Origin: a virus
Length of the DNA: 40,223 nucleotides
Virus record (IMG/VR): IMGVR_UViG_3300025108_000135
Span: 1-40,223 of that record
Direction: 5' to 3' (one strand)
Shown one piece after another: positions 8,504 to 39,922 of the stretch. The number at the start of each line of letters is the position of its first letter. The stretch's first letter is position 1. The position numbers and the translations under genes are program-made. The notes beneath the pieces are model-generated. The model made no database searches, had not been told where the DNA came from, and saw only the letters and a list, made by a program, of their open reading frames with translations.

Positions 8504-8527
8504 ATAACATATAATAGTAAAAATTTA

Positions 8528-9145
8528 TTAGGAATCCAATACGTTAATATCTTTTGGAGTTACATTGTCATTATCAACATAATACTGTAATAGATCCGTA
8601 AAATATAAAGATATACCAGGTACTGTGATTTCTGCTGTTTGCAATTCTTTGTAATTATTGCTCTGTACACCCGGAATTGTTATGTTGCCTTGTTGAGTAT
8701 CATTGATATTTCCTGTAATATACCATTTAAGTTTAACAGCTAAGTACAATACCGGATCTATATCTTCGCTAGTATATGCATCATATGTGTCACTGTTAAC
8801 TTCATAAAATATGTTGTCATTAGATCGTTTAATTATAAATCTATCAATATACCCGTTATTAATATTTTCTTTGGTAATTACAACGTTATACGTGTTAAAT
8901 GATTTATAATTGATTTCTATATCAGAAATTTTATTGTACTCAATAACAGACTCTGGTTGTTCTTTGTATTTAATTAATTTTACTGATTTATTTTTGTTCC
9001 ATGTTGGTTGTGAATATATTTCGCCTGTTGTGTATTTATGATATAATCCGACATAATCTACATTATCAGTAGTCATTAGCTCTTGACCAGTAGTATATAA
9101 ATTATTAACTATTTCATTGGCGCTATAATATGACTTTATTCTCAT
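8528..9145 (-). CDS. Putative baseplate-associated protein, function unknown
   Basis: The 205 residues are rich in Asn, Tyr, Ile and Thr and probably form mostly beta strands. No motif is recognised. The start overlaps the stop of the hub gene (ATGA), so it is translated right after it and is likely to be a virion or baseplate component. The segment YIDRFIIKRSNDNIFYEVN and the ending YFTDLLQYYVDND show no enzyme signature. It is the last gene of the tail block before the polymerase-like gene, 24 nt away. Confidence 0.6.
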   Translation of the reverse strand: MRIKSYYSANEIVNNLYTTGQELMTTDNVDYVGLYHKYTTGEIYSQPTWNKNKSVKLIKYKEQPESVIEYNKISDIEINYKSFNTYNVVITKENINNGYIDRFIIKRSNDNIFYEVNSDTYDAYTSEDIDPVLYLAVKLKWYITGNINDTQQGNITIPGVQSNNYKELQTAEITVPGISLYFTDLLQYYVDNDNVTPKDINVLDS

Positions 9146-13078: not shown

Positions 13079-14994
13079 TATATTCGTTTCCTCCCGTTCA
13101 TTGATGTGTCACCCATTACGTTGCTTCCTCGAAGTGTAACAAGTATGCTTTGCAGAAGACTTTCCATTCTTGCATTTGATGTTACTGGTCCTCCTGCGGC
13201 ATAACCAACTGGTCCGCCACTATTGATTTTGTCTAGCAATGATTTGTTTCTTCTGGTAGCTGCGGCATTAATAACATATTCACCGTCGGATAATCGGGCT
13301 GGTATCGAATCTGATGTTCCGGTGCCTGCGCCTGATATGTATCCACCAGTTGCTTTACCTGTTACTACTGGTTCAGCTGATGGATCTTTTATTATTGTAG
13401 TTAAATCCGTTATCTTCCCAGCAATCTTATCTATTCCTTTTCCTAATACTCCTGGTAATACCTCACCCAGTTGTTTTAATGGAACAAGTGATTCTTGCAA
13501 TCTATCACTAACAATACCTAGACTTCCAATGCCTTTTATAAAGTTCGGCTCTGTAAATGTTTCGGATGCTTTTCTTGCAAATTCCATCGATGCTTTAACC
13601 GAATCGTTGAGGTCCTTTGTAAATACAGCTCCCGACGGGCCATCAGCAGTTCGTTTACCATCCCCAGCAATTATTCCGCCTTGTCCAATAAATGCTATAT
13701 CTTTTTTTATTGCGTCTAATGAGTCAGCGCTTCTTTCTGCAGGTGTTCTGGTGTCTGATGTTTTAAGTAACTCATCAATTTTTTTAAGTTTATCTTCATC
13801 ACCTTTAGCTTCTTCTTTAAGTTTTTGTATGGCACTTTGAGCATCATCAGCTGACATATTCATTATATCTTCAGCATTTAGATCGACCAATAGTTTTCTT
13901 TTCTGAATCATTTTGGCTAATGTTGCTTCGTCAGTTCCCATTAGCTGAGCAGCTTTCTGTCGTGCAAATAAATTCTTTTCAAGAGTATCACCTTCACTAG
14001 CAATGAATTGATTCATTAACTCTGCTTGTTTAGTAGCATCACCAGTTACAGTTGCCAGTCGATATTCGTTTGTTAAACTTTTACCTTGATTGTCTAATAA
14101 TCGCCGGCCGGTTAGTTGTTGGTATTCCATTTCTGCACCAATACTGGATTCTATGTTTAACAATGATTCTCCAGTACCATGTAAACTTTCCATGGATGTG
14201 CCTAACAATCTGGCTTTCATTGTGGCTACTTCTAATTTGTTTCCAACCCCACCATATTGCAATTGTAGATCTGATCCCATAGCAGCTATGTCTTGCATAA
14301 TTTGAGATTGTTGTTGCACTGCATCTATTCCGGTAAATTCTTCCAATGCTCTAGACATTTGTTCAATTTCACCTGCTGCTTCAGCTCCTGTTTTTCCGAT
14401 ACCCGCAGCATATAATTCAAAGCTCTGTGCGCCTTCTTCTGATAATCCTATATTGTTTTGTAAAAATGTTTGTGTTTTAATTAGATTACTTAATGTAGTT
14501 TTTTGTACTTTATTAGACGTTATAAACCCACCAGTAATCTTTCCTAATCCTGCAGCATATTTAAATAGTTTAGCATCGCCAATTTCAACGTTAATAGCTC
14601 GTAACCGTTTAGAAAAATCAAATCCGCCGGCACTACTCAATTTAAATTCTTTTTGTAAGTCTTTTTGACTTTCTATTAAGAATGTGAGATTTTTTATTGA
14701 CTTTTCGGTTGCTTTTGCAAAATCATCAAAATAAGCAGTGGCTCTACCAACACCTGCTGACAATGCTGCAAATTCGCTGATGTTGGCTGAAACGAGCTTA
14801 CTCACATCTTCAATAGCCGGACCAACACCTTTTAATGACGCAGCGAAGGTATCGATTTCTTTAGCAATTTTAGCTACAGTACCGCCTTTATTTAAATCGC
14901 CAATAGATTTAGCAAATTTGTCAAATTCATTTGCCATACCGAGTCTAGGCTGCTTCTTTAATTCGTTAATAGACACGTGTTTTGAAGATCTCAT
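13078..14994 (-). CDS. Tail tape measure protein
   Basis: It probably sets the tail length and sits inside the tube. The first 450 of its 638 residues are mostly helical with repeated hydrophobic patterns, typical of tape measures. The C-terminal part has GGYISGAGTGTSDSIPARLSDGEYVINAAAT, a common phage tape-measure segment, and a Gly-rich end. At the usual figure of about 0.15 nm per residue it would measure a tail of roughly 96 nm, close to T4. A later ATG (Met20, MANEFDKF) is possible, but the first ATG is 17 nt from an ATATTTAT motif and has normal spacing. The chaperone genes lie just upstream, as expected. Confidence 0.85.
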   Translation of the reverse strand: MRSSKHVSINELKKQPRLGMANEFDKFAKSIGDLNKGGTVAKIAKEIDTFAASLKGVGPAIEDVSKLVSANISEFAALSAGVGRATAYFDDFAKATEKSIKNLTFLIESQKDLQKEFKLSSAGGFDFSKRLRAINVEIGDAKLFKYAAGLGKITGGFITSNKVQKTTLSNLIKTQTFLQNNIGLSEEGAQSFELYAAGIGKTGAEAAGEIEQMSRALEEFTGIDAVQQQSQIMQDIAAMGSDLQLQYGGVGNKLEVATMKARLLGTSMESLHGTGESLLNIESSIGAEMEYQQLTGRRLLDNQGKSLTNEYRLATVTGDATKQAELMNQFIASEGDTLEKNLFARQKAAQLMGTDEATLAKMIQKRKLLVDLNAEDIMNMSADDAQSAIQKLKEEAKGDEDKLKKIDELLKTSDTRTPAERSADSLDAIKKDIAFIGQGGIIAGDGKRTADGPSGAVFTKDLNDSVKASMEFARKASETFTEPNFIKGIGSLGIVSDRLQESLVPLKQLGEVLPGVLGKGIDKIAGKITDLTTIIKDPSAEPVVTGKATGGYISGAGTGTSDSIPARLSDGEYVINAAATRRNKSLLDKINSGGPVGYAAGGPVTSNARMESLLQSILVTLRGSNVMGDTSMNGRKRI

Positions 14995-16728: not shown

Positions 16729-19209
16729 CTATTCAGGAAATGATGCACCCGTAGGTTGAATATTAAAGTCTAAGACAATAAATTCTGCCGTTCTAGTTGG
16801 TTGTAAAAATATTTGACCATACATTATATTTCTATCTATTACGTCTGGTGTGTTATTTGTTTCATCCATTACTACACGGAATGCTGACAAACCTTGTTGT
16901 GCTCTTACTTGTTCTAAATAAGGATTCACAATGCTCAAGAATCTGTTTCGTGTTGCTGAAGTGTTTTGTTCGAATACTAGGTATTTAGTTGACGACGCAA
17001 TAAACTTCTTAACTTCGATAAGCAAACGACGCACATTGACACGGTCTAATGCACTCGGACGAGCTTGCAATGTCTTTTGCCCCCAAACACAAATTCCTTC
17101 ATTAGGGAAGTTTGCTATAGGATTAACACGATTCTCATACAACTCATCTCTATCTGATTGACTTAGATTCTTATATGTACCAATTGCTGTTGTCAAACCA
17201 CCTCTAGTTAAACCAGCTGGTGCATACCATGGTGCAGTTACAACATCATTAAATGCTAATACACCTGGCATCACTACTGATGGCGGAACGAAAATTGGTT
17301 TATTTTTTCCTGGATCTACAACTCTTACCCATGGGAAATATGTTGCTGCATAATTGCTATCAATATTTGTTACTTGTTGAACTACAGTATCAATATTATC
17401 TGTTAATGCATTACTATCCATTATATAGAATGTGTCTTGTCTTTGTTCTACCAAGTTTCTAGCAGCACTAGTTACTAATGGGTGAAGGCTATCAATAACA
17501 CCTGGTGTTATCAACATGTTCATATCATAATAATCTGCATTACTTAGCAATGTGAATGCTTTATTATATGCCTTAGTTCCAGTTGTGGCTGTACCACTAC
17601 AATCAAATCCAAATGTGTTTGTAGATTTAATATTTGTTCCTGATAGTTTAGGTAAATTAGGACGAGCTCCATCAAACCCACCTTGCATTGGCACCATAAA
17701 CTTTCTAGTGTTAATAGAAACGTTGCTAGTAAATGTATTAGCATTCAATGCTGTTGTCAATGATCCACTATATGCAGTTGCTGCTGTTGGGAAATTTGCT
17801 TCCGCATCTTGGCTTACATCACCTAGATAAAAGTCTACATTACTACCAGTAGTCGAATTAGAAGTTGGAATTGGAGATAAATAATTCAAGTTATTCAAAT
17901 TATCAAAATCAAATCCGAAATAATTTCTGCTATTAAATGTGGTTTGAACTTGTGATGTTAATGTTTCTGTTGCTGGTAAATTAAGTGATGCACTATACAT
18001 CGGAATTGGCGATGTTAATGCCACAAACCCAAATGGTATCAATGTTTCACTGTTTGTTTTTTCTGCTACACCTGGATCAACTTCCACTCTAATAAATTTA
18101 GATAAATTAGGATAATCACCATTAACAACAATATCACCAGCATCAGTTACTGTGCTATATCGGTCTCCAATTACTCTAGAAATATATCTAGGAGAGTCTG
18201 GATCTAAATTTAGATTTGTAAATGATTCAACAATATCCGGTGTTCTGTCTGTGTCTTGTGATGAATATGGAGTATTAGCAATATTGGTAGTGTTTACACG
18301 TCTTACCTCTACTGTAAATGTTCCGTATCCATTTGGATCTGAAACTTCGCTAGCAAGTCTAATATCACGAATACCAATTTTCACTTCAGAACTAACTGAG
18401 GTACCATGTGATAGTGTGTGAAATTTAAATAGATTCTTTGCCGTTGTTCCAATTTTCTGAGAAGTAATAAACGGTGTTGCTGCTGTTTTATAATCTTCTA
18501 AAAATGCATAGTTACTACCAGTTACTTGTTCCAATGAAATAGTGACATCAGCCATATTATTAAACAAGCTAGATGCATTTTTATTTTCATATTGTACATA
18601 TACTGGATAATCTACTGATTTAGGAGACTTACCATATGTTTTTGTTATATATGAATTATCAGTCGATACAATTGAAGCTGATACTGAAGCTCCGTTCCCT
18701 GCTAAGAATGCACTAAAGCCTGGTATTGTTGTGTCAGTAGTAAATGATCCAGATACTTTTATTTCAAATGAACCTGACGAATTATTATTAATAACCGAGT
18801 CTTCAAAATATGCCGCATTCACAACACCACCAGCACCTAATACTGCTTGCGTTGGATGAAGTATATGTGTTACGGTTTCAACTGCATCTGCACCTGATCC
18901 TGATTTTGCAATGACGCCAATTGCCCCATTTGGTATAGAGTAACCATCTTCATATAAAAGTCGTGTTACTGTTATTACATTTCCATTTCTCAGGTAGTCA
19001 TTAACTACAAATGGAACATATGAATCATCTGTATATGATCCGAATATTTGTTCAAATTCACCATATGATGTAATTTGAGTCGGTACTAGTGCAGGCCCCT
19101 TTACGGTTGACCCTACTATTGCTGCACCAATTTGTGCTACTCCTCCGGCTAAAAACGATTGATCAACTTCATTCGTAAATACACCAGGCGAAACAATTCT
19201 TTCTGCCAT
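16729..19209 (-). CDS. Tail sheath protein (gp18-like)
   Basis: It forms the contractile outer sheath. The N-terminus SPGVFTNEVDQS and GGVAQIGAAIVGSTVKGPAL is the classic sheath start, and the C-terminus YGQIFLQPTRTAEFIVLDFNI is the classic end. At 826 residues it is longer than T4 gp18 (659). The extra length lies in the middle, where beta-rich segments probably form surface domains. The start has AGGAG at good spacing and an ATATTTAT motif 27 nt upstream. It follows the fibre module and precedes the tube gene, as in T4 (18-19). Confidence 0.95.
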   Translation of the reverse strand: MAERIVSPGVFTNEVDQSFLAGGVAQIGAAIVGSTVKGPALVPTQITSYGEFEQIFGSYTDDSYVPFVVNDYLRNGNVITVTRLLYEDGYSIPNGAIGVIAKSGSGADAVETVTHILHPTQAVLGAGGVVNAAYFEDSVINNNSSGSFEIKVSGSFTTDTTIPGFSAFLAGNGASVSASIVSTDNSYITKTYGKSPKSVDYPVYVQYENKNASSLFNNMADVTISLEQVTGSNYAFLEDYKTAATPFITSQKIGTTAKNLFKFHTLSHGTSVSSEVKIGIRDIRLASEVSDPNGYGTFTVEVRRVNTTNIANTPYSSQDTDRTPDIVESFTNLNLDPDSPRYISRVIGDRYSTVTDAGDIVVNGDYPNLSKFIRVEVDPGVAEKTNSETLIPFGFVALTSPIPMYSASLNLPATETLTSQVQTTFNSRNYFGFDFDNLNNLNYLSPIPTSNSTTGSNVDFYLGDVSQDAEANFPTAATAYSGSLTTALNANTFTSNVSINTRKFMVPMQGGFDGARPNLPKLSGTNIKSTNTFGFDCSGTATTGTKAYNKAFTLLSNADYYDMNMLITPGVIDSLHPLVTSAARNLVEQRQDTFYIMDSNALTDNIDTVVQQVTNIDSNYAATYFPWVRVVDPGKNKPIFVPPSVVMPGVLAFNDVVTAPWYAPAGLTRGGLTTAIGTYKNLSQSDRDELYENRVNPIANFPNEGICVWGQKTLQARPSALDRVNVRRLLIEVKKFIASSTKYLVFEQNTSATRNRFLSIVNPYLEQVRAQQGLSAFRVVMDETNNTPDVIDRNIMYGQIFLQPTRTAEFIVLDFNIQPTGASFPE

Positions 19210-19214
19210 TATTA

Positions 19215-19264
19215 TTCTCCTATATTTTGTTTATTATAAATATGACGGTTTAATCCCAAACCTA
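19215..19264 (-). repeat. Duplicated promoter region, copy A
   Basis: By eye, about 45 of 50 bases are shared with 20599-20648, including GGTTTGGGATTAAA, the ATATTTATAATAAA motif and CAAAATATAG. Copy A leads into the sheath gene with its AGGAG ribosome-binding site. Copy B has GCAGA at that place and leads into a fibre remnant. Confidence 0.8.
19236..19243 (-). promoter_or_regulatory. ATATTTAT motif before the sheath gene
   Basis: The motif CATATTTATAATAAACAAA lies 26 nt before the sheath start. About 50 bp around it (19215-19264) recur at 20599-20648. A weak stem GGTTT/AAACC precedes it. Confidence 0.7.
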
Positions 19265-24383: not shown

Positions 24384-24791
24384 TTAATCTAGTCCTACAA
24401 ATAAACTAGATGATGTAAAATATATTGCACCAATTGGTGCTGTCGTTGTTAGTTCTTGTGATTGAGTTGCAAATATAACTACACCACTTTCTGATACTGC
24501 TAATATGGGAGCAAATGATGTGTCTCTAATTAAAAACATTGTTGGTGCATCATTAGTAACTGTAACAGCTCCTGATTCTTTAACTGTTAATACTTCAACG
24601 CTGGATGATTTAATAAGAAATATATCTCCGCCTGTTCCATTAATATCTAATGAGCCGGTTATTTTAGCATCTCCGATAAACGGAAAAGGTGATGTTGTAT
24701 TTAATGCATGGGAGGCGGTTATTGCAAATGATGAGGATATATTATATAAAGACCCCGTTTGTATTTGCCCTGGTCTAATCTGTCTAGCCAT
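24384..24791 (-). CDS. Fibre-like or collar-like small structural protein
   Basis: I chose the ATG at 24791 (MARQIRPGQIQTGSLYNISS, 135 residues). It overlaps the stop of the upstream gene as TAATG and has GGGAG nine bases before; a start three codons earlier (24800) would sit directly on that site. The protein is rich in Ser, Thr and Ile with repeated short strands (SSFAITASHAL, KITGSLDINGTGGDIFLI) like fibre shafts. No enzyme motif is present. It links the neck genes to the fibre module and may be a fibre connector. Confidence 0.6.
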   Translation of the reverse strand: MARQIRPGQIQTGSLYNISSSFAITASHALNTTSPFPFIGDAKITGSLDINGTGGDIFLIKSSSVEVLTVKESGAVTVTNDAPTMFLIRDTSFAPILAVSESGVVIFATQSQELTTTAPIGAIYFTSSSLFVGLD

Positions 24792-26017
24792 TATTGCCAT
24801 CTCCCATTAATAATAATTGCATCGGTATCTATAATATCATAACCCAATACATTAGTATCAAATACTATTGTTTGAATTGTAGCATCATTTGGCGTCCATG
24901 TGTACCCACTACTATCGATATATTGTCCATTAACATATATGTCAAACTCATTTACATTTGCAAATTGTAGATTGGTTGGATTGATTGCTGGTTTTGCGTT
25001 TACTGTTACCGTAGTAGCAGATACATATGTTGCAGTTTTATCTGTCAATGTAGTTAAATATGTTAATACATTACCATCGATTGTCGTACGACTACCTCCA
25101 GCACCGTTAACAATTACAGTTCCGCCTCCTACAATAGTTTGCGATGAATTTAATAATTGAGTAGGAATTTTTGTTGTTTCAAATATATTACTATCAACAT
25201 CGACAACTGTTTGAAATACTAATTTTTTTACTGAATACATTTTTTGCAGTGTAGATATTTTAGTTTCGTGTTCTGATAATAATGTTCCGTGTACTGTTAA
25301 TGGTATTGTGGCTCTAACTAATCGATCTTCTCCTACCGTATTAACCGTTTCAAAACTTACATTTCCAATTATAGTTTCATAACGATTTTGTTCATTTCCC
25401 CATGCAAATCTACCATATGGTAATATTTGATCTACCAATTCATTCATTTGTGTAGTAAAATCACACCAGAGCATCAAGTCATATTCAATAGTAACATATT
25501 TAGGAACGTCTACTACATATACTTTTTGAGATTTCTGTTTAGGATTTGTTGGTATAGGAAATAGTTCATCTTCATATCTATTTCTACTATTATATTTAGA
25601 TCGATAAATTAAACGATTATCAGTTAACTTTCTATTAACATCTAAACCTTTTCTGTTGTCACGTTCTGACATTGAATTTCGTTTAAGCATTAATAAAGGA
25701 GATTGTAACATTCCTTTTTCGTCTCGTATATATCCTAGTCTACGAACATTATCCCACTTTTCACCATTAGCAAAAATAGTAGGAACTGATATTAAATTTT
25801 TATTTGCTGTAATTTGAGGTTCAATTTCATTTTCAATATACCATTTTATAGCATAATCAATATCATATATAGTACGAGAAGCACTTCGAATTACATCATC
25901 ATCACGGCGTGTCTGTTCCGATCTATTTAAGATTGGATCGGCTCCTAATCCCTCTGTTCTATCGGGATTTGGTTTATTTGTTTTTCGATCGATATTTTTT
26001 CTATTATACTTTGGCAT
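24791..26017 (-). CDS. Tail completion / sheath terminator-like protein (gp15 position)
   Basis: The 408-residue protein follows the gp13-like and gp14-like genes, where T4 has gp15. The central part (VPKYVTIEYDLMLWCDFTTQ, MNELVDQILPYGRFAWGNEQ, then NVSFETVNTVGEDRLVRATI) looks like the fold of tail-terminator proteins. The first 170 residues are charged and hydrophilic, and the C-terminal 100 form an additional beta domain with no known relative (NEFDIYVNGQYIDSSGYTW). The start has AAAGGAG. Identity with gp15 rests mainly on order and partial pattern. Confidence 0.55.
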   Translation of the reverse strand: MPKYNRKNIDRKTNKPNPDRTEGLGADPILNRSEQTRRDDDVIRSASRTIYDIDYAIKWYIENEIEPQITANKNLISVPTIFANGEKWDNVRRLGYIRDEKGMLQSPLLMLKRNSMSERDNRKGLDVNRKLTDNRLIYRSKYNSRNRYEDELFPIPTNPKQKSQKVYVVDVPKYVTIEYDLMLWCDFTTQMNELVDQILPYGRFAWGNEQNRYETIIGNVSFETVNTVGEDRLVRATIPLTVHGTLLSEHETKISTLQKMYSVKKLVFQTVVDVDSNIFETTKIPTQLLNSSQTIVGGGTVIVNGAGGSRTTIDGNVLTYLTTLTDKTATYVSATTVTVNAKPAINPTNLQFANVNEFDIYVNGQYIDSSGYTWTPNDATIQTIVFDTNVLGYDIIDTDAIIINGRWQ

Positions 26018-26538
26018 TAATCTCCTTTATATGCAGGTGAATTATTATTACCACCAAAACGCATATCTAAAATACCTTGCGGCGTTTGTCTAGTTGCATG
26101 TGCATCAACAACTACTGACACACTATATCCATGATCTGTTCCATTAGGCCATGTTTCAGGATTTTTACCTACAAAATATTGATTAGAATCTACGTTGTCT
26201 AATTCAAAATATTCATTATCCCAAAAAACAATATCACCCACTTCTGGATAAAAGTCTGCTTTTACTAGAATGTCTCGAGCGATAGCAAATTTAGAAGTAC
26301 GAGTATATGTATGTCCATAATCATCCATACTAGAATTTTTATCGTCTTTAGTAATTAGACATGGAATCAATATAGAGTCATAATATGATTTAGATTCAGA
26401 CTCACCGTATAAATTCGAATTCGATGACTCAACAACAAGTTTATAAAATTCAATTTCTGTATCAATGACAGCGTTTATTAGTTCTGAATTAATTGAAGCT
26501 AAAAATTTAGCATCCCTCTGACCTCCAAACAATGCCAT
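26017..26538 (-). CDS. Neck protein (gp14-like)
   Basis: The 173-residue protein begins MALFGGQRDAKFLASINSEL, then IEFYKLVVESSNSNLYGESE, and has PEVGDIVFWDNEYFELDNVD and NQYFVGKN. This matches the gp14-like neck proteins of T4-type and cyanophages as I remember them. In T4, gp13 and gp14 close the head after packaging and carry the tail. The start has a strong GGAGG, the best in the window, and its stop overlaps the start of the following gene (both at 26017). Confidence 0.75.
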   Translation of the reverse strand: MALFGGQRDAKFLASINSELINAVIDTEIEFYKLVVESSNSNLYGESESKSYYDSILIPCLITKDDKNSSMDDYGHTYTRTSKFAIARDILVKADFYPEVGDIVFWDNEYFELDNVDSNQYFVGKNPETWPNGTDHGYSVSVVVDAHATRQTPQGILDMRFGGNNNSPAYKGD

Positions 26539-26548
26539 AATCTACCTC

Positions 26549-27772
26549 CTATCCTACATATATTTTTAATGGAACTTTTCCTAATATTTCCATTTGTTGT
26601 GTTGCTTCTGTGTTTTGCCTTGTTAACATCTGTTCTTTAGTTAACTTGTCTAAAAATTCTCTAAGTTGTGTTATCAATGCTTCTTTTTCAGACTGTCCTT
26701 GTGTCACTAAATCACTACCATTTAAGGTTACTTCTCCATTTGGTATTGGAACTGACGAATATTTATTACGTACATATCCCAATGTCTCTTTCACAATGGC
26801 AGATGCATATCTATATATCCAACTACGGCCCATATCATTAATGTTAGCGTATTTTTGATATGAATATGGTATATTAGATGCGTCTGACACTACTCCGTTT
26901 AGAAGTGCGCTATTCCCAAATAACACACCGCTATTAGTTTTATCTTTTTCATATATAAATTCAAACCAAACCTTATCATAAAATGGAGTAGATATTGTTC
27001 CCTGAGTACCAGGTACTGGATATAATTTAATGTCATCTCCATGAATCTCAAAAGAAAATGCTGATTTACGTATACGATCATTAAACTCAATACCTTGTAT
27101 ACGGAACAAATCCATATGTAATGGCATCATCATAAAGTTTACACTAGGAGAAAATCCACCAAAGTCAAATGCATCCATCATGTTTTGTGAACCCATACCT
27201 GTTCCTACAAATGGATCAAAGTATCTAACAATTGCAGGAGGTGGTGCATGAAGTACTCTACGTATCTCAACGCCGTTATTATCTGTTATATCTACTCCCA
27301 ATGATGCAGATACGGCATCTCTAATACTATATGTTTGTTTGCCGTCGACAACATCAATTGATGCACTATACCAACGCACATCACCACCTGAATCTGCTTC
27401 TGTTCCATATGCTTTTGATAGTCTGGTTATGTAGCTTAAATTACCTCCTACTAATGCTCCGGTGAATCCGTCATTAGTTAAAAAATCAGATCCGGTTTCA
27501 ACACCTAATGTATTTATTAAATTATTAACAATATTAATTTGATTTACTTGATTAGAATATTCAATAACAGCAGCTTCAAAAGCTGTATAGAAATTTATAT
27601 CTATTAATTCAACATCCATAATCGGATATCCAACGTTATTTGCAGCAAATTGTGCAAAGCTGTCAGCTTCCGCTTGGAATGATGTATCAGTATCAAAGAA
27701 ACCAAATGGAGTTTTTCCGGGGCTAAATGAAGAGCTTCCGGGCCATATTGGTTTATTTTCTGAGTAGTCCAT
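26549..27772 (-). CDS. Neck protein (gp13-like)
   Basis: The 407-residue protein begins with the motif WPGSSSFSPGKTPFGFFDTD, then FQAEADSFAQFAANNVGYPI and AAVIEYSNQVNQ. These segments are familiar from gp13-like neck proteins of aquatic T4-type phages. The middle has the Met-rich stretch SVNFMMMPLHMDLF, and the C-terminus a charged helix (EALITQLREFLDKLTKEQML). It lies directly before the gp14-like gene and 15 nt after an ATATTTAT motif. The gp13 assignment is by pattern and order; a search would confirm it. Confidence 0.7.
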   Translation of the reverse strand: MDYSENKPIWPGSSSFSPGKTPFGFFDTDTSFQAEADSFAQFAANNVGYPIMDVELIDINFYTAFEAAVIEYSNQVNQINIVNNLINTLGVETGSDFLTNDGFTGALVGGNLSYITRLSKAYGTEADSGGDVRWYSASIDVVDGKQTYSIRDAVSASLGVDITDNNGVEIRRVLHAPPPAIVRYFDPFVGTGMGSQNMMDAFDFGGFSPSVNFMMMPLHMDLFRIQGIEFNDRIRKSAFSFEIHGDDIKLYPVPGTQGTISTPFYDKVWFEFIYEKDKTNSGVLFGNSALLNGVVSDASNIPYSYQKYANINDMGRSWIYRYASAIVKETLGYVRNKYSSVPIPNGEVTLNGSDLVTQGQSEKEALITQLREFLDKLTKEQMLTRQNTEATQQMEILGKVPLKIYVG

Positions 27773-28864: not shown

Positions 28865-30535
28865 CTAAAGAGTCTCTAATCCTTTGACATATACTTTTCC
28901 GTAGAATTCTGGACGAACTACTTTCTTCGCGTAACGTGTCATAACACCTTTACGTGGAGTGAAGTTTACCGGATCGTATACCAATGGAGTCATGATAAGA
29001 GGTACGTATGGAGAGAAAACTGCTCCAGTCTCAAGGAATTGTGCTCCTCTGAATCCCATTAGGATTACATTCTCTTTCATGTATGGGTTTTTGTAAACTG
29101 TGTAACGGTTATTGATTGCACCAATCTTTTGTACACCAGCTGCAAATTCCATTTTATTTCCATCTGTGTCTGCAGCAAATCCAGGAATAGATTCTAGGAT
29201 AGTTGCCACTGCTGGAGATGTTACTAAGAAGTTAGCACCACCACGCAATGTTTTTTGATGAATTTTATTTGAAACTTTTTGCAGTTTAGTACCAAGAGTT
29301 TGGAACCATCCGCCTTGAGTGTTATAGAACCCACCATTGCCAACTGCAGCTGCAGCGTCAAATGATGTACCGTTCCAGAACTCATTGTTTACTGCTGACC
29401 AATACTCAGTAGTTGGTGCAGAAGAAATCAACATATCAAGAATCTCTAAATCAATTTCCATTGATACATACTCAGACAACATTGAAGTCAATTCTGCTTC
29501 AGCATCGATTGAGTGGTAAGCGTTAAGATCTTGAGCAAACTCAGGAGTCCAAACAGCTTTTAGTTTTCTTGTCTTAGCAACGATTGGCTCAGACTGAAGT
29601 TCCAAGTTAACTTCTGGAATGTCAATGTCTGTTCCATCATCGATACCAGTACCAGCACCAGATCCTTTAAACGGATTAGCATCTTCAAAGTCACCTCTTG
29701 TAATATCGGTTGGAGCTTTGCTATAGTTAAGATCCAAGTTATTAGCAACGATTGCATCATTAATTCCAGCAGCTAATGAAGCAGTTACAACGAATGATGC
29801 AGTAAAGTCAGAGTCAATAGTTGAGAATGCTTGTACAGGAATAATTTCTGCGTTATTAGACCCAGATGCCAATGTAAATGATCTAACAGCTAATGGATCA
29901 GCGTCAGTAGGTACATTAACTTCTAATACAAAATACTGATCAGAATTTGCAGTGTAAAGTGAATCAAAGTTTAATGATGCACTAGATGCTGCAGCTGCAG
30001 CGGCACCAGAACCAGTAGTAGCAGTTACGTCTGTAGCCACTACGTTAGGGATTGAATATCCAAAACGACCAGCACCATAAAGACCACCTGATGGGTCACC
30101 TGATGTATTAGTTACACCAAACATAGAATCGTCAGCTTCTGGAGAACCGAATGGGTGTCCATCACCTTCTGCATTATCATCGTCAAATCCTGGACGAGCT
30201 GTACCATATTTAAAGTCTAAGTAAAATACTAGACCTGATGGCAAGTTCATTGGTTGAACAGATACAAATTCTTTTGCTGCAAATTCAGCAAAGATTCTTC
30301 GTACCAATGGAAGAGCAACTCCTGCCCATTCCTCAGAACCTGCTGCTGTACCTGTAGCAGATGATTCTTTTACTAATTGTCTTGCTTGGTTTTCAAGCAA
30401 TGTAGCCATTCCGGCTTTTTCTGTCTCGTTTGAGAGACCTTCTAGAAGACCTGTCTTTTCCCATTTAGAAACGTGTGCTTTTACAGCTGTTCTTTGAGAA
30501 GCGTCAGGACTTTGTAATAATGAATTAAGACTCAT
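28865..30535 (-). CDS. Major capsid protein (gp23-like)
   Basis: It builds the head shell. The 556 residues (T4 gp23 has 521) contain AGMATLLENQARQLVKESS near residue 45, then EWAGVALPLVRRIFAEFAAK and PMNLPSGLVFYLDFKYGT, all typical of the gp23 family. Near the C-terminus, FSPYVPLIMTPLVYDPVNFT and GVMTRYAKKVVRPEFYGKV follow the same pattern. It lies directly after the scaffold gene, as 22-23 in T4. The N-terminal region before the shell domain is probably removed by the prohead protease; the cleavage site was not located. A-rich leader with AAGGA upstream, no ATATTTAT motif of its own. Confidence 0.93.
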   Translation of the reverse strand: MSLNSLLQSPDASQRTAVKAHVSKWEKTGLLEGLSNETEKAGMATLLENQARQLVKESSATGTAAGSEEWAGVALPLVRRIFAEFAAKEFVSVQPMNLPSGLVFYLDFKYGTARPGFDDDNAEGDGHPFGSPEADDSMFGVTNTSGDPSGGLYGAGRFGYSIPNVVATDVTATTGSGAAAAAASSASLNFDSLYTANSDQYFVLEVNVPTDADPLAVRSFTLASGSNNAEIIPVQAFSTIDSDFTASFVVTASLAAGINDAIVANNLDLNYSKAPTDITRGDFEDANPFKGSGAGTGIDDGTDIDIPEVNLELQSEPIVAKTRKLKAVWTPEFAQDLNAYHSIDAEAELTSMLSEYVSMEIDLEILDMLISSAPTTEYWSAVNNEFWNGTSFDAAAAVGNGGFYNTQGGWFQTLGTKLQKVSNKIHQKTLRGGANFLVTSPAVATILESIPGFAADTDGNKMEFAAGVQKIGAINNRYTVYKNPYMKENVILMGFRGAQFLETGAVFSPYVPLIMTPLVYDPVNFTPRKGVMTRYAKKVVRPEFYGKVYVKGLETL

Positions 30536-30567
30536 TTTTCTTTTCCTTTTTCTTTTTTAAAATTAAA

Positions 30568-31602
30568 TTACTTTAAACCCGCTAGTTTCTTCCAACGGTT
30601 GGCTTGTTCGAAGCCTTCAGTTAATACCTGAGTTGTTTCTTTACTTGGAGCAGTAGTAGCTACTGGACGAGATGCCATTGATTTTGATTCTTTAACAATT
30701 TTCTTTCCTGCCTTTGGCGTTTGGAATGATTCTGCTAAAGTACTAAATACTAGTTTTGCTTCTCTTGTATTAGCTGCTCTGTCAAAGTTTTCGATCACTT
30801 TCATTTTTTGTGATTCGCTCAACTCAAAATTTCGGAACAATTTGTTTGTGTAAAGAAGTTTTGCATTTAAAAGATTAACTTCATTAATAACTGATTTAAG
30901 ATGTTCTACTGTTTTATAAGCTTCTTCAAGCTCTTCTTTCAGTCCTTCATCTTTTGCCTCATCTTTAGAATCAGCCATTTCACCAATTACTTCTTCTTCT
31001 TCTGCTTCTACTTCTTCTTCTGCTAAGATTGCTTCAATGAGTTCTTCAATTGAATTATTAGATTCATATATACCTTCTTCAACGTCTGCTTCGTTATACA
31101 TACCTTCTTCAACGTCTTCTTCGTCGATACCTGCAGCAGCTGCATCTGAATCTAAATCTTCTTCAAGCTCTCTAATGATTTCTTCAAGATCCATGTCGTC
31201 ATCATTCATGTCGTCAGCCATGTCGTCAGTCATTTCCATTTCTGGTGACACGTCGTCTGTTTCAGCTGGAAGCATATCATCCATGTCTTCTTCATCATCC
31301 ATACCAATTTCACCCTCTAGATCATAATCACCGTCATTGTCTAAATCGACAGCAACACCAACCATATCTGGAGTTTCGTCAGCCATGTCTGAATCCATAT
31401 CCATGTCATCCATACCCATTTCTACCTCTTCGCCATCTACCATGTCTTCATCTTCTAATTCATTCATTAGTTCGTTTTCGAGCATGCTTTTGATTCTAGG
31501 TTGAAACGCTTCTTGAAGAGCAATCTTCGCATTAGCTAATGCAGTTTCTTTAACCGCCTTTGCGTCAGCAATCGCTTCTTTTAGCAAATCTGATTTTGCC
31601 AT
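30568..31602 (-). CDS. Prohead core scaffold protein (gp22-like)
   Basis: The 344-residue protein is the inner scaffold for capsid assembly. Its first 35 residues are a helix, the middle (about 45-225) is extremely acidic with many Asp, Glu and Met, and the C-terminal part (YKTVEHLKSVINEVNLLNAK onward) is helical and ends EQANRWKKLAGLK. That layout and the place between protease and capsid fit gp22. The acidic part holds one DLDNDGDYD motif, like the motifs in the ORF at 33585, and a short tandem repeat (DVEEGMYNEA / DVEEGIYES). The start has AAGGAG and a 100-nt leader. Confidence 0.8.
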   Translation of the reverse strand: MAKSDLLKEAIADAKAVKETALANAKIALQEAFQPRIKSMLENELMNELEDEDMVDGEEVEMGMDDMDMDSDMADETPDMVGVAVDLDNDGDYDLEGEIGMDDEEDMDDMLPAETDDVSPEMEMTDDMADDMNDDDMDLEEIIRELEEDLDSDAAAAGIDEEDVEEGMYNEADVEEGIYESNNSIEELIEAILAEEEVEAEEEEVIGEMADSKDEAKDEGLKEELEEAYKTVEHLKSVINEVNLLNAKLLYTNKLFRNFELSESQKMKVIENFDRAANTREAKLVFSTLAESFQTPKAGKKIVKESKSMASRPVATTAPSKETTQVLTEGFEQANRWKKLAGLK

Positions 31603-31633
31603 TTGTTTTCTCCTTAAATTTGTTTTTTGGAAA

Positions 31634-31782: not shown

Positions 31783-32031
31783 TTAATCGTCTCGATGCAT
31801 ATCTTTAATTTTCTGGATATACTTTGCTTTAATTAGTTTTGCTCTATGTTTTACACTAGGTTTAGTAAATGTACGATTTTCTTTAATATGTTCTAATATT
31901 CCAGAATTCTTTACTTTGCGTTTAAAATTCTTTAAAGCAAATGCAAGATCTCTATCGTCTTTACCTGTTACGGAAACAGCATTTGCATTTCCTGGTACTA
32001 TGCTTTTATGGTACTTTTGGTTTCTACTCAT
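31783..32031 (-). CDS. Ribosomal protein bS21 homologue
   Basis: The 82-residue protein has the bS21 core: DLAFALKNFKRKVKNSGILE, then IKENRTFTKPSVKHRAKLIK and AKYIQKIKD. bS21 sits near the anti-Shine-Dalgarno end of 16S rRNA and takes part in start-site choice. The C-terminal pattern KPSVxxRxxxxxAxYxQ with Tyr71 resembles bS21 of Bacteroidota rather than the Arg-rich E. coli form, from memory. The first 25 residues are an additional N-terminal stretch. Phage bS21 genes are known from other aquatic phages. It lies in the head gene block, just before a terminator, so it is expressed with late genes. No clear ribosome-binding site. Confidence 0.82.
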   Translation of the reverse strand: MSRNQKYHKSIVPGNANAVSVTGKDDRDLAFALKNFKRKVKNSGILEHIKENRTFTKPSVKHRAKLIKAKYIQKIKDMHRDD

Positions 32032-32041
32032 ATAACTTGTT

Positions 32042-32512
32042 TTAAAATTTTCTTTGTTTCATTTTTTTAGACTCTTTACTCTTAGGTGCTTTAAAAGCAA
32101 ACTTTAAAAGTTCTGGTAATTGAGCAAAGTAGCCTTGAATCTTTTGTGATTCTGTTCCTGGATCTTCTCCTAATCTAAAATAAAAATATCCCGTACGGCC
32201 TGACTTTGACTTTTCATGTGATATAATAGTAAAGCCTTTTTTAGTAGTCCAACGTTGAATATCTTTTGCAACTGCATTAGCTTCTTGTGGGTCTCTTAAT
32301 TGATATATAACATGTCCATTGTAATCAGATAAGTTGTTAACTAGTTGAGCTTCGTCTAATTCTGATTCAGCTAATCCAGCATCTTTCATTGCATCTCCTA
32401 ATTTTTCAATAGCATCAGTTGATTTTTCGATTTCTTCTGGATTTGGTATCTTTGAATCATTTTGTTCTTTTAAACCAAAAAACTCTTTATACATGTTTTT
32501 AAACTTACTCAT
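32042..32512 (-). CDS. Head-region protein, function unknown
   Basis: The 156-residue protein begins MSKFKNMYKEFFGLKEQND. Its N-terminal half is helical and acidic; the C-terminal half is a small alpha/beta region (GHVIYQLRDPQEANAVAKDI, GFTIISHEKSKSGRTGYFYF). It ends with a basic tail (SKESKKMKQRKF). I recognise no family. Placed between the protease and scaffold genes, it is probably a prohead-core or head protein. A variant of the promoter motif (TTATTTATATAA, around 32532-32538) lies 20 nt upstream. Confidence 0.6.
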   Translation of the reverse strand: MSKFKNMYKEFFGLKEQNDSKIPNPEEIEKSTDAIEKLGDAMKDAGLAESELDEAQLVNNLSDYNGHVIYQLRDPQEANAVAKDIQRWTTKKGFTIISHEKSKSGRTGYFYFRLGEDPGTESQKIQGYFAQLPELLKFAFKAPKSKESKKMKQRKF

Positions 32513-32531
32513 TATTATTCTCTTATATTAT

Positions 32532-32538
32532 ATAAATA
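32532..32538 (-). promoter_or_regulatory. Degenerate copy of the ATATTTAT motif
   Basis: TTATTTATATAATATAAG differs by one base from the core. It lies 20 nt before the start at 32512 with AGAG as ribosome-binding site. It may be a weak promoter. Confidence 0.35.
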
Positions 32539-32962: not shown

Positions 32963-33583
32963 TTATATCCTACATTTACCATCTTCACATAATATTGATG
33001 TGATTATGTCATTAACCGTTTTATATTTATTAGTTATACCTTTCTCAACTGATTCTTTCATTACTCCCATAAATGCTCCATGGGTAGATGGATTTGAGAC
33101 AAAGTCCCAACAAATCAATTCAAAGTCATCCTGCACTTCTACTACGCCTTCATTTCTAAGTTCTTTTACACTACCCAATCCTCTACTAGAAATACCTAAT
33201 GTAATGCCTTCTTTAAATAATGACTTTAATATTTTACCAGATGGAGTATCTAATACTTGAACGGTTCCTTTTAGATCATCGCCATCCCACCATATTTTTA
33301 AAACATTATGAGATACATTATTTAAATTCACAACGCTAGATTCTGGATGATCTAGTTCACCTAATGCTCTATTCTGATCTATATACTCACGTTGATATCG
33401 TTGACATTCACGCATTAAAATATTTTTAGGATATACTCTGCCGTTTTGATTTTTAGCACCAGCTCTCTGTAAAACGCCTTGTACTACGAATCCTCCTGGT
33501 ATGCCGTATTTTGCTCCGTTTGATTCATTAAGTGAACCAACTGGTTTAAATTGCATGAAGTCTTCTAATATTAATTTTGACAT
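32963..33583 (-). CDS. Prohead protease (gp21-like serine protease)
   Basis: It probably cuts scaffold, core and capsid proteins during head maturation. The 206-residue protein has the herpesvirus/gp21 protease pattern: NGRVYPKNILMREC near 48-60, catalytic His79 in GELDHPES, a Ser in LGISSRGLGS (Ser132 or Ser133) and WDFVSNPSTHGAFM towards the end. The place between portal and scaffold genes is the T4 order 20-21-22-23. The start has AGGAG. Self-cleavage is expected for the family, but no site was mapped. Confidence 0.88.
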   Translation of the reverse strand: MSKLILEDFMQFKPVGSLNESNGAKYGIPGGFVVQGVLQRAGAKNQNGRVYPKNILMRECQRYQREYIDQNRALGELDHPESSVVNLNNVSHNVLKIWWDGDDLKGTVQVLDTPSGKILKSLFKEGITLGISSRGLGSVKELRNEGVVEVQDDFELICWDFVSNPSTHGAFMGVMKESVEKGITNKYKTVNDIITSILCEDGKCRI

Positions 33584-33584
33584 T

Positions 33585-34199
33585 TTATTCTCCTAATGAT
33601 CTAACTCGCTCTGATATTTTAATTAATCGCTCTGATATTTTTCCTAATGCCTTGCTAGTACTAGGACCAAATCCAGAATGTGATATTCCTGATTCTGTTT
33701 TTAATCGACTAGTATATTTAATAGTTTCTTCAATTTCTTTCAATTGTTTAGCTACATTTTTAATAGATGCATTTACTTTTTTAGCAGGACTCATTTTAGG
33801 ATCACTCAATGCAAATGTTTTATAGCCTTCGATAAGACGCTCATATTTATTATCCATTGCTTCCTGGACTCTTTTATATCCTAATGCTTCAACAGTGTCA
33901 TCATCAGCTTTACCAAATGCTTTAGGCGTCATATATGCCCCAGCTCCTGCAGATGTAGAAATTTCTTCTAACTCATCTTCATCTTTATCGCTCAATGCTT
34001 TCTTCATTGACTCTTCAGTATCACCGTCGTTATCAAAATCTAAAAAATCAGGCTTAGCAGCTTCATTTTTTTCTTTTGCTGCTTTTTTCATTGACTCTTC
34101 AGTATCACCATCGTTATCTAAATCTAAAAAATCTGGTTTTGCTTTTTTTTCTTCGAGTGACTGAAAGCTTTCTTCTATTTGTTTTAAAAATGATTTCAT
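33585..34199 (-). CDS. Prohead-core protein with DxDNDGD repeats
   Basis: The 204-residue protein has two copies of KPDFLDxDNDGDTEESMKKA, at about 21-40 and 49-68, encoded by an 80-bp direct repeat. The core DLDNDGDTEE resembles EF-hand or dockerin calcium loops. The scaffold protein carries one similar motif. The C-terminal half is helical and basic (ASIKNVAKQLKEIEETIKYT). The location between portal and protease is where T4 has gp67 and gp68, small prohead-core proteins, so that role is likely. It overlaps the preceding gene as TAATG and ends 1 nt before the protease start region. Confidence 0.65.
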   Translation of the reverse strand: MKSFLKQIEESFQSLEEKKAKPDFLDLDNDGDTEESMKKAAKEKNEAAKPDFLDFDNDGDTEESMKKALSDKDEDELEEISTSAGAGAYMTPKAFGKADDDTVEALGYKRVQEAMDNKYERLIEGYKTFALSDPKMSPAKKVNASIKNVAKQLKEIEETIKYTSRLKTESGISHSGFGPSTSKALGKISERLIKISERVRSLGE

Positions 34200-36970: not shown

Positions 36971-38551
36971 TTACAATAACCAAGTTAATCCTTCGTCAGA
37001 TTTACCATTATTCCAATCCCAACCAGAGTCTCTAGGTTTATTTTTACCTGTATAAATAACACTATCTGTTTTTTGAAATTGTGATAATGCTCGTTTGTTT
37101 AGATCAATTCCTTGTTGTCGTAATTTTAATGATGTATCACGTAACCATAACCCGATACAAAATGCCATAGTTAAATCATCATTATAACCACTCTGTGCTT
37201 GAGCTTTCCCATTTAACCAATGAAAGACAAATAGTTCTTGTATGAGACGCTTACTCCGTATTATTGGAGTTTTTTCTCGCATATACATTTCTAATGCTGA
37301 TATCATTAATGGTCGTGTTCTACTAGTAGTAGATACACCAGGTACCATTTTTGATTTGTCTTTCATATCATATCCTTTTTGTAGTTGGACATCCACATCG
37401 ACATAACCATCATCTTTGTATGTGTAAAATAAATTTTCGTAATTTCTATCTAGTGCTGGTTGAATTGCAGCCCATCCAATATTAGCATTTTCAATTGCCA
37501 GTAATGCGTTATTCCATTCGGTAGCAACTGTAACTAACATGTTTCCAAAATCTTTTGGAGGCAATTTACCTTTATATTCAGCTACTTGAGTTATTGTTTC
37601 TACTTCAATTACATGAAACGTGGACCAGTCGGCACTATCACCACGAGCGACATCTGCAATTACCATATAATTTTTTGAGTAGTCAGGATATTCCCAAACC
37701 CAATAACCATGATCATGTCCTCGCTTTTCTATAGGATCGGTGCATGTAGATTCATATTCGGCTAATATATTACCATCAATTACAGTGTGTCCTGAACTAA
37801 CAAAATCACAATCACACTCCTGAGCTGCTCCACGTTCTCCTAATAATTGTGTTTGTCTATCTCTCCATTCTTGATCGCGATCTGGATGCACCGTCCAATG
37901 TAACTTTATATTGTTCCATTCTGTTTGTGGATTTGTTTCTCCATCAACCCATGTTTTATGAAACCAGTTACCTATACCATTAGGAGTAGATAATACAATA
38001 GCCCCACCACCAGTTGATAGTGTTGCTTGAGATGCTATCCATATTTCTTCAATATTTCGAATAAACGCAGCTTCATCTATTATTAATAGTGATAATGCTT
38101 CTGAACGTGCACCCGTTGTCGCAGAAGAAACTGCTTTTATTTGTGATCCGTTTTTAAATTTTAACGATAATTTATTATCAGCTTCAATTGTTCCTTTTAA
38201 CCAACTAGGTAAGTTGTCATGCATTACCCTGACTTTAGTTACAAGATTTTTTGCTACTTCTTGTGTAGTTGCAATAACTAACACGTTGAAGTCTTCTTGA
38301 AATAACATGCTCCATAGTGCAAATCCAGCAGATAAAGTTGATATACCTAACTGCCTAGATTTTAAAATAACACTATATCTATTGTCTTGTAAATTGGTTA
38401 ATGAATCTTCCTGAAATGGATATAAATTAAATTTAATTTTTCCTTTTTTAGGATGTTGTATATAACAATATTGCCGCATAAAAAATACTGGATCAGCAGC
38501 ACACATTTGATATTGTTGCTGTATTATTTGTTTTATGCTAGGCTGTGACAT
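36971..38551 (-). CDS. Large terminase subunit (gp17-like)
   Basis: This is the ATPase and nuclease that packs DNA into the head. I chose the ATG at 38551 (MSQPSIKQIIQQQ, 526 residues), because it overlaps the preceding stop as TAATG; the longer frame from 38617 lies inside that gene. Walker A is KSRQLGIS at 64-71, Walker B with catalytic Glu is LLIIDEAA at 155-162, and LSTPNGIGNWF is the coupling motif. The nuclease part has IADVARGDSADWSTFHVIEV, then AIENANIGWAAIQ and GYNDDLTMAFCIG. The likely small subunit was not recognised. The gene order, terminase then portal, is as in T4. Confidence 0.94.
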   Translation of the reverse strand: MSQPSIKQIIQQQYQMCAADPVFFMRQYCYIQHPKKGKIKFNLYPFQEDSLTNLQDNRYSVILKSRQLGISTLSAGFALWSMLFQEDFNVLVIATTQEVAKNLVTKVRVMHDNLPSWLKGTIEADNKLSLKFKNGSQIKAVSSATTGARSEALSLLIIDEAAFIRNIEEIWIASQATLSTGGGAIVLSTPNGIGNWFHKTWVDGETNPQTEWNNIKLHWTVHPDRDQEWRDRQTQLLGERGAAQECDCDFVSSGHTVIDGNILAEYESTCTDPIEKRGHDHGYWVWEYPDYSKNYMVIADVARGDSADWSTFHVIEVETITQVAEYKGKLPPKDFGNMLVTVATEWNNALLAIENANIGWAAIQPALDRNYENLFYTYKDDGYVDVDVQLQKGYDMKDKSKMVPGVSTTSRTRPLMISALEMYMREKTPIIRSKRLIQELFVFHWLNGKAQAQSGYNDDLTMAFCIGLWLRDTSLKLRQQGIDLNKRALSQFQKTDSVIYTGKNKPRDSGWDWNNGKSDEGLTWLL

Positions 38552-38931
38552 TATTGAATTACTCCTACAATAAATTTGCCAGTTAGTATCGTTGTAAGAA
38601 TACCAGCACCGAACCAAACAACTTTATTATTATACCATTTAGGTTGTAACTTTTTTTGTTGTTCAATATATAAATTTATGTTAGTTTCTAATAAATCAAT
38701 TTGTTGCTGTTTATATACTAATTGTAATGAATCTAATTTAATTAGTTCATCTTGTTTATCTATAACAGCTGTTTGTTGATTTATTAGTTGATTATTAACT
38801 GAATCTTTATAATATAAATCATCTAAAGTTTCTGATATATCATGTATTTGTTGTTCTGTAAAACATGTGTCAACAACCGTTTGACTGAATCCGACTATTG
38901 GAAATAATAATACAAGTATTAATTGTTTCAT
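38551..38931 (-). CDS. Exported coiled-coil protein with C-terminal membrane anchor (spanin-like layout)
   Basis: The 126-residue protein has a signal peptide (KQLILVLLFPIVGFSQ, probable cut near 16-18), a coiled-coil part (about 25-95, rich in Gln, Leu and Asp) and a C-terminal membrane segment (WFGAGILTTILTGKFIVGVI, 106-125). The GFSQ end of the signal is typical of Bacteroidota secreted proteins. Cys23 is not in a normal lipobox. The arrangement resembles a one-protein spanin that spans the periplasm, but a structural role is possible as well. It overlaps both neighbours (ATGA upstream, TAATG with terminase). Confidence 0.6.
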   Translation of the reverse strand: MKQLILVLLFPIVGFSQTVVDTCFTEQQIHDISETLDDLYYKDSVNNQLINQQTAVIDKQDELIKLDSLQLVYKQQQIDLLETNINLYIEQQKKLQPKWYNNKVVWFGAGILTTILTGKFIVGVIQ

Positions 38932-39272
38932 CGTTTTTTCTTAGTTTTTGAAACAATATTATGTTTTGCTTGTGCTGTAGTTTTCTTTGGACGACCAGGA
39001 CGACGTTTTGCTGTTTTAGTAGCTTTTGTTTTTTTAACAGTTTCTTTTAATTCTGTTAATTCTTTTTTTACTTGTCGTTTTTGCGTTTTAACTTGATCTT
39101 CTTTTCCTTTAACACGTTCAATTTTTTTTGTGTTATCGTCAATCTTTTCTTGTATTTTTTCTACTGTTTTTCGATTACGTAATTTTCCAATTGTTGCAAT
39201 CAGAGCTAATAATCCTATAATTCCACCAATGATCCATTTACCATGTGATTTAATAGTGTTCCAAATTTTCAT
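38928..39272 (-). CDS. Membrane-anchored coiled-coil protein with basic, AT-hook-like tail
   Basis: The 114-residue protein has one N-terminal membrane segment (WIIGGIIGLLALIATIG, 13-29), then a charged coiled coil (about 33-85) and a very basic C-terminus with RRPGRPKK at 90-97, similar to an AT-hook. By the positive-inside rule the C-terminus should be in the cytoplasm. The role is unknown: a holin or inner-membrane spanin partner for the next gene, or a protein that ties DNA or RNA to the membrane. The start has AGGAG, and its stop overlaps the next start (ATGA). Confidence 0.55.
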   Translation of the reverse strand: MKIWNTIKSHGKWIIGGIIGLLALIATIGKLRNRKTVEKIQEKIDDNTKKIERVKGKEDQVKTQKRQVKKELTELKETVKKTKATKTAKRRPGRPKKTTAQAKHNIVSKTKKKR

Positions 39273-39922
39273 TTTGTTTCTCCTGTAACTGTTTTGTTTA
39301 ATTTATTTAAAAAGTCTATTTTATATGACTCAAATCCTTTTGTGATTTTTTCTTCGAATTCTTCTGGTGTCATTTGTGCAGCCCATGTTTCAGTTTCTCC
39401 TTCACTGTTAATAACTAGTTTAGATGCTTTAGTATATGCCTCTCTTAACATATCAACATCTTGTTCTGCTTTCTTTAACCATGCTAATGCATTAGCTTCT
39501 ATTTTTTTATTAGCATATTCTTCAAATTTACCCGTTTTCTTAAGTTCATGCTCCATATCAATAACACAGTCAAAACACATTCCGTGGATTGCTCTCATTT
39601 TTTGATTAAGATAATAGTTAGGATCACAAGTACATGTCTCTTTTGGACATTTAGCATATGATCTTAATTCTTCTCGAACTTCACTAAGTACTTCTGAATT
39701 TTTTGGTTTTCTTGTTCTGAATCCATCAAATTGTTCTACTATGGTAATATTACCATTAGCATCAACATCTTCCCAGATATCTCCAATTTCATGATGTTCA
39801 TTTCTTTTTTTCGTTGCCTCAGCATCACTAAATCCAACAGTTTTTTTTGTTTGGAATTTGTGAGTACCGTCAATCATTTGTTGAACGGCTTTGATGTTTT
39901 GTAACTTGTTTGTTTTTGCCAT
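39269..39922 (-). CDS. Cys-rich, possibly zinc-binding protein, function unknown
   Basis: The 217-residue protein has Cys92, Cys97, Cys99 (KCPKETCTCD) and Cys116, Cys119 (GMCFDC), enough for a zinc site. A helical part follows (IDMEHELKKTGKFEEYANKK), then TETWAAQMTPEEFEEKITKG. I recall related proteins with a MCFDCVIDMEHEL core near packaging or head genes in aquatic T4-type phages, without a role. The position upstream of the terminase gene would suit a packaging factor, but there is no DNA-binding motif I can name. The end overlaps the next gene by four bases. Confidence 0.65.
   Translation of the reverse strand: MAKTNKLQNIKAVQQMIDGTHKFQTKKTVGFSDAEATKKRNEHHEIGDIWEDVDANGNITIVEQFDGFRTRKPKNSEVLSEVREELRSYAKCPKETCTCDPNYYLNQKMRAIHGMCFDCVIDMEHELKKTGKFEEYANKKIEANALAWLKKAEQDVDMLREAYTKASKLVINSEGETETWAAQMTPEEFEEKITKGFESYKIDFLNKLNKTVTGETK

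Follow-up and report, generated by a model that had tools for sequence, protein, structure and literature searches.

Genes for bS21 are the commonest ribosomal protein genes in phages. In the ribosomes of Bacteroidota, bS21, bS18 and bS6 form a pocket that conceals the anti-Shine-Dalgarno sequence (ASD) of the 16S rRNA and in which Tyr54 of bS21 stacks on A1534 (PMC9976891), and genes led by a Shine-Dalgarno (SD) site amount to about 1-2% (PMC10783764; PMC3155529). In Flavobacterium johnsoniae, loss of bS21, loss of its C-terminus or the substitution Y54A enhances translation from SD reporters, and ribosomes whose bS21 is absent or mutated show increased SD use and decreased SD-less initiation (PMC9976891); the rpsU gene of this organism carries a strong SD and is autoregulated (McNutt et al. 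2023, PMC9976891). As for phages, Chen et al. 2022 (PMC9723584) described freshwater Bacteroidetes phages whose bS21 keeps Tyr54 and is expressed late, and proposed that it is swapped into ribosomes; according to the account cited by these authors, incorporation of a phage bS21 into the 30S subunit has been shown only for that of HTVC008M, in E. coli. Basic N-terminal extensions have been reported for the rpS21 of huge phages (Al-Shayeb et al. 2020, PMC7162821). The core idea of a first-pass annotation of the DNA described below, namely that a late-expressed phage bS21 enters ribosomes, changes access to SD sites and so favours late phage mRNAs, is thus largely published, both late expression and ribosome swapping being already in Chen et al. 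2022 (PMC9723584), but for a link of phage bS21 to SD use no report was found in the literature searched.

The window, that is, the whole stretch of DNA analysed, is a 40,223-base virus record of IMG/VR that lists no host, and in which a bS21 gene lies on the same strand as T4-type structural genes (terminase, portal, prohead protease, capsid and sheath), while replication genes (DnaB-like helicase, RecA and gp32) occupy its left end (Table 1). Profile searches confirm the bS21 assignment made by the first-pass annotation: the 82-residue product passes the cut-off of PF01165 (46.8 bits, threshold 27) and that of TIGR00030 (36.0 bits, threshold 28.95). Among solved structures, the bS21 of F. 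johnsoniae matches it best (7jil; E=3e-8). The annotation was also right that a C-terminal Tyr is kept as in Bacteroidota: Tyr71, aligned with Tyr54 of F. johnsoniae, is a Bacteroidia-type trait, whereas the short Bacteroidia-type N terminus (MLII...VK) is absent and a basic extension of about 17 extra residues is found instead. In the AlphaFold model (pLDDT 88.6) the three usual bS21 helices are predicted at residues 29-43, 45-53 and 58-80, and one more helix, spanning residues 3-10, precedes them. Compared with PDB folds, the model finds its two highest-ranking matches, both weak (E values 0.33 and 0.39), in chain Q from structures of the human mitochondrial 28S subunit, which we take to be mitochondrial S21.

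Table 1. Features of the window, in window coordinates
Feature	Position	Strand	Remark
SD GGAGG	13090..13094	minus	of ORF 11573-13078
Tail sheath	16729..19209	minus	phrog_23
SD AGGAG	19217..19221	minus	of sheath
SD AAGGAG	26022..26027	minus	of ORF 24791-26017
SD AGGAGGT	26544..26550	minus	of ORF 26017-26538; strongest of the window, -14.4 kcal/mol
Major capsid protein	28865..30535	minus	phrog_138
SD-like AAGGA	30544..30548	minus	of capsid gene
344-aa ORF	30568..31602	minus	between bS21 and capsid gene, scaffold-like position, SD-led
SD AAGGAG	31610..31615	minus	of 344-aa ORF
Phage bS21 (rpsU), 82 aa	31783..32031	minus (32031->31783)	own start without SD
Tyr71 codon	31819..31821	minus	aligns with F. 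johnsoniae bS21 Tyr54
Basic N-terminal extension MSRNQKYHKSIVPGNAN, codons 1-17	31981..32031	minus	absent from Bacteroidia bS21
156-aa ORF	32042..32512	minus	directly upstream of bS21, 10-nt gap; no family match
TATTTATA, T4-type late-promoter-like motif	32531..32538	minus	upstream of 156-aa ORF and bS21
Prohead protease	32963..33583	minus	Peptidase_S77
SD AGGAG	33590..33594	minus	of protease
Large terminase	36971..38617	minus	53-58% to immuto and Mel-JY01
Exported protein	38551..38931	minus	Q-rule signal peptide MKQLILVLLFPIVGFS, then QTVVDTC; host indicator
SD AGGAG	39280..39284	minus	of ORF 38928-39272

The 156-aa ORF and bS21 probably share one transcript, and the motif TATTTATA stands 26 nt before the former; the coding strand of the window holds 12 copies of it and the opposite strand 2, most of them 19-33 nt before structural genes, as a variant of the T4-type late promoter. 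The 344-aa ORF had no Pfam or PHROG match. The phages of Chen et al. 2022 resemble the window in the setting of bS21, which is surrounded by genes for terminase, portal, protease and capsid, in their predicted Bacteroidetes host and in the aromatic residue at the Tyr54 position. Their bS21 is linked to late expression; that of the window may be transcribed late too, a motif of the late-promoter type lying before its operon. They differ in their genome size of about 300 kb and in encoding bS21 and the structural genes on opposite strands (here bS21 lies on the late strand), whereas the N-terminal extension and the SD-led late genes belong to the window. For those phages SD sites were not reported, and blocking of the ASD was assumed to persist. 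The bS21 of F. johnsoniae (PMC9976891; 7jil) is of the same family, with Tyr54 and Tyr71 aligned, and governs the use of SD sites; its gene, however, has a very strong SD and is subject to self-repression, unlike the SD-less phage gene, and there SD use arises from the loss of bS21, while in the phages it accompanies an extra one. The rpS21 of huge phages (PMC7162821) has N-terminal extensions too, predicted to aid ribosome binding or phage initiation, but in that work SD was compared with rpS1 and no link between rpS21 and SD was reported.

The SD sites that had been singled out before late genes are real (AAGGAG at the 344-aa ORF, AGGAG at sheath and protease, GGAGG and AGGAGGT at ORFs 11573-13078 and 26017-26538). 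With genes called by a simple ORF rule, a match of at least 5 nt to the SD precedes 13 of the 40 genes of the window, against 2.4 expected from shuffles (z=-7.4). Relatives were collected by their capsid protein and dereplicated, giving 141 loci, 68 with and 73 without bS21; mean ddG is -2.03 in the former and -0.38 in the latter (p=1.8e-21). In 740 pooled upstream regions of the bS21-bearing relatives the top enriched 5-mers are GGAGA, AGGAG and AAGGA, and AGGA/GGAG peaks at -13 to -9; no such positional peak is seen in 358 upstream regions of relatives without bS21. Shuffles, de novo 5-mers and positional peak rule out chance or base composition as the source of the signal; wrong start calls are likewise discarded, given that among tightly packed genes lying behind an upstream stop the contrast is kept, SD frequency being 40% with extended bS21 and 5% without bS21 (8% with compact or short bS21).

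Groups with and without bS21 are interleaved on the capsid tree, along which bS21 changes 7 times; in the supported independent pairs SD changes in the same direction as bS21 in 4-5 of 6 and in the opposite direction in none, relatedness limiting the independent tests to a number too small for a conclusive sign test. Loci L296 and L297, for instance, have both bS21 and SD and are nested within a clade lacking both, and L076, L266 and L078, with neither, are neighbours of L026. Flavobacterium phage immuto (NC_055915) shares lineage and gene order with the window (capsid 61%, terminase 53%) but differs in lacking bS21 throughout its 160 kb, all of which was searched, and in showing no significant SD excess (z=-1.5); whole-record searches also found no bS21 in other bS21-negative records of 182, 163, 162, 132, 99 and 99 kb. 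The SD sites of this phage lineage thus co-vary with bS21, with exceptions: SD is found without a visible bS21 in L264, in the 21-kb fragment L181 and perhaps in L235, and L239 has a short bS21 (71 aa) and no SD, the compact bS21 loci taken up below forming a further set. L084, once counted among the bS21-less SD users, was dropped from them, as it does encode bS21. In L181, which belongs to the immuto clade, strong SDs precede tail genes at 7852-8976, and a bS21 gene may fall outside the record. The first 50 kb of the Bacteroides phage crAss001 (L312) are weakly enriched in SD sites (present at 9 of 46 genes; z -2.8), and no S21 gene is annotated there.

The distribution of SD sites along the genomes is uneven. 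In six large genomes with bS21 the enrichment is centred on the bS21/capsid block, SD sites preceding 66/142 homologues of structural genes against 9/71 homologues of replication and nucleotide genes (p=7e-7), so that some replication genes do carry them; in two large genomes without bS21 the counts are 0/40 and 0/24 (total 0/64). The structural-not-replication pattern is found in the window clade, where SD is restricted mainly to late genes, and in two other clades. The bS21 gene itself departs from its neighbours: the window copy has no SD (aaaattttaaaacaagttatATG), a point absent from the first-pass annotation, and among 38 loci with an extended bS21 and Bacteroidota-like features it is SD-led in none, against 275 of 618 other genes there (p=9e-10); in 37 of the 38 it falls below the median SD strength of its locus. 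An SD-less start would be expected of bS21 if it had to be made first by SD-blind host ribosomes.

The first-pass annotation had drawn attention to the C-terminal Tyr; this residue does not behave as the key. Compact phage bS21s (MLII..., 59-65 aa), some sharing the AKYIQK tail of the window protein, accompany SD-less genes, and the Tyr at position 54, kept in the window clade, is lost in other clades which likewise use SD. As the determinant of SD use the Tyr tail was rejected on both counts, L102 and L105 being compact, with the same tail and no SD, and Tyr-less SD users existing; in the compact, host-like loci L105, L260 and L092 SD is scarce or absent. The bS21 type associated with SD begins instead with a basic extension, in which a PG...GV motif is frequent, and this N-terminal extension appears to be a better correlate of SD use than the Tyr tail, within a small contrast given by the few compact, SD-poor cases inside the lineage. 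Extension length alone shows no correlation with SD strength among the phages with bS21.

It is likely that the window bS21 takes the place of the host protein, uncovers the ASD and gives late phage mRNAs an advantage. The phage would infect a Bacteroidota host in which bS21, bS18 and bS6 hide the ASD and SD sites are unused; unmodified host ribosomes would translate its SD-less bS21 gene before the switch, and this gene would thereby escape the strong-SD autoregulation typical of host rpsU. Phage bS21, with its basic extension, would then displace host bS21 on the 30S subunit and leave the ASD free, a step in which the extension may have a direct role; ribosomes carrying it would favour SD-led late phage mRNAs, and SD-less host mRNAs would probably be translated worse. 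The claim of the first pass that a phage bS21 alters SD access to the advantage of late mRNAs has strong comparative support in so far as SD tracks bS21, while incorporation into the 30S subunit, exposure of the ASD and the gain of late mRNAs are what we infer from it. On balance we also lean towards a broader reading, taken as one claim: a virus ribosomal protein would switch the initiation rule of the host from SD-blind to SD-using during infection, on a genome written for it, in which the early genes and the triggering bS21 gene have no SD and the late genes do; SD sites would be gained and lost within the lineage together with the extended bS21. Against replacement and ASD exposure stands the retention of Tyr71 in the window bS21, its F. 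johnsoniae counterpart helping to hide the ASD; the exceptional loci named above, the SD sites on some replication genes and the weak enrichment in crAss001 also count against the reading.

The host is probably a member of the Bacteroidota, as the first-pass annotation had supposed: the nearest isolate is the Flavobacterium phage immuto, the bS21 tail is Bacteroidia-like, and the signal peptide of ORF 38551-38931 fits the Q-rule of Bacteroidetes signal peptides (PMC5837995) and points to such a host. A Q near the cleavage site of signal-peptide-like ORFs occurs in 8/12 cases in the window clade, in 7/16 and 4/9 in two other clades with bS21, in 13/16 in immuto and two genomes without bS21, and in 2/9 in the Mel-JY01 clade, some matches in this tally being loose, so that it supports the host without proving it. 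When GTDB genomes were scanned with the capsid protein in search of hosts, 6 mixed MAG contigs were the only matches, which does not decide the matter. The relatives suggest a marine origin of the phage.

If the SD users of the lineage infected SD-using hosts, both SD and bS21 would follow the host and bS21 would be irrelevant to SD access. Such a situation is met in the clade of Mel-JY01 (PP395634), whose host is given as Microcystis: it shares the lineage and has bS21 at the same place, but in Mel-JY01 itself SD sites run throughout the genome (the other members were read in the capsid region), and the bS21 gene of the clade is SD-led in 9 of 12 cases. The group of L255 and L265, with a compact bS21 of a different type and SD, also fits; its related members (L255, L256, L262, L263 and L265) show strong SD use and a shorter bS21, and are possibly phages of SD-using marine bacteria. 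As an account of the window clade this explanation is nevertheless unlikely, because an SD-using host requires neither SD on structural but not replication genes nor a bS21 gene SD-less in 38 of 38 loci, because the signal peptides, by the Q-rule, indicate Bacteroidota, in which about 1-2% of genes are SD-led (PMC10783764), and because groups with and without bS21 are interleaved on the tree. In the Mel-JY01 clade (L013, 12184-12411, PP395634.1; L073, L075, L081, L089 and L243-L252) the bS21 tail, differently from that of the window, reads ..NAARKRQRK.. and has no Tyr; one exported ORF of the clade looks Q-rule-like, which casts a question on the Microcystis host.

A second possibility is that a factor travelling with bS21, such as the 156-aa ORF next to it or else a protease removing host bS21, exposes the ASD and phage bS21 fills the vacancy. 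A protease of this kind has been speculated on by McNutt 2023 (PMC9976891), and the 156-aa ORF has no known family; bS21 itself, however, is the simplest factor varying with SD that is known to gate the ASD, and phages with a compact bS21 and no SD also speak against this explanation, which we regard as very unlikely. There is, finally, only a slim chance that bS21 acts as Chen et al. 2022 would have it, mimicking the host protein (the Tyr hiding the ASD) while its N-terminal helix prefers phage mRNAs, or boosting supply, with SD unrelated: Tyr71 in the window clade and the SD-less genes accompanying host-like compact bS21s agree with it, but it leaves unexplained both the tracking of extended bS21 by SD and the placement of SD on late genes.

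If replacement of host bS21 by the phage protein is true, it offers a testable reason for the abundance of bS21 in phages, at least in one lineage, namely that it changes the messages accepted by the ribosome; it would be a natural specialised ribosome under viral control, and would explain the usefulness of SD sites in a phylum which ignores them. For work on Bacteroidota bS21, the phages would provide natural variants differing in ASD access. In L169 (LR756501.1, a 735-kb phage) a compact bS21 gene at about 19.96-20.15 kb has a strong SD, AAAGGAGG (-12.1 kcal/mol), resembling in this the autoregulated host rpsU.
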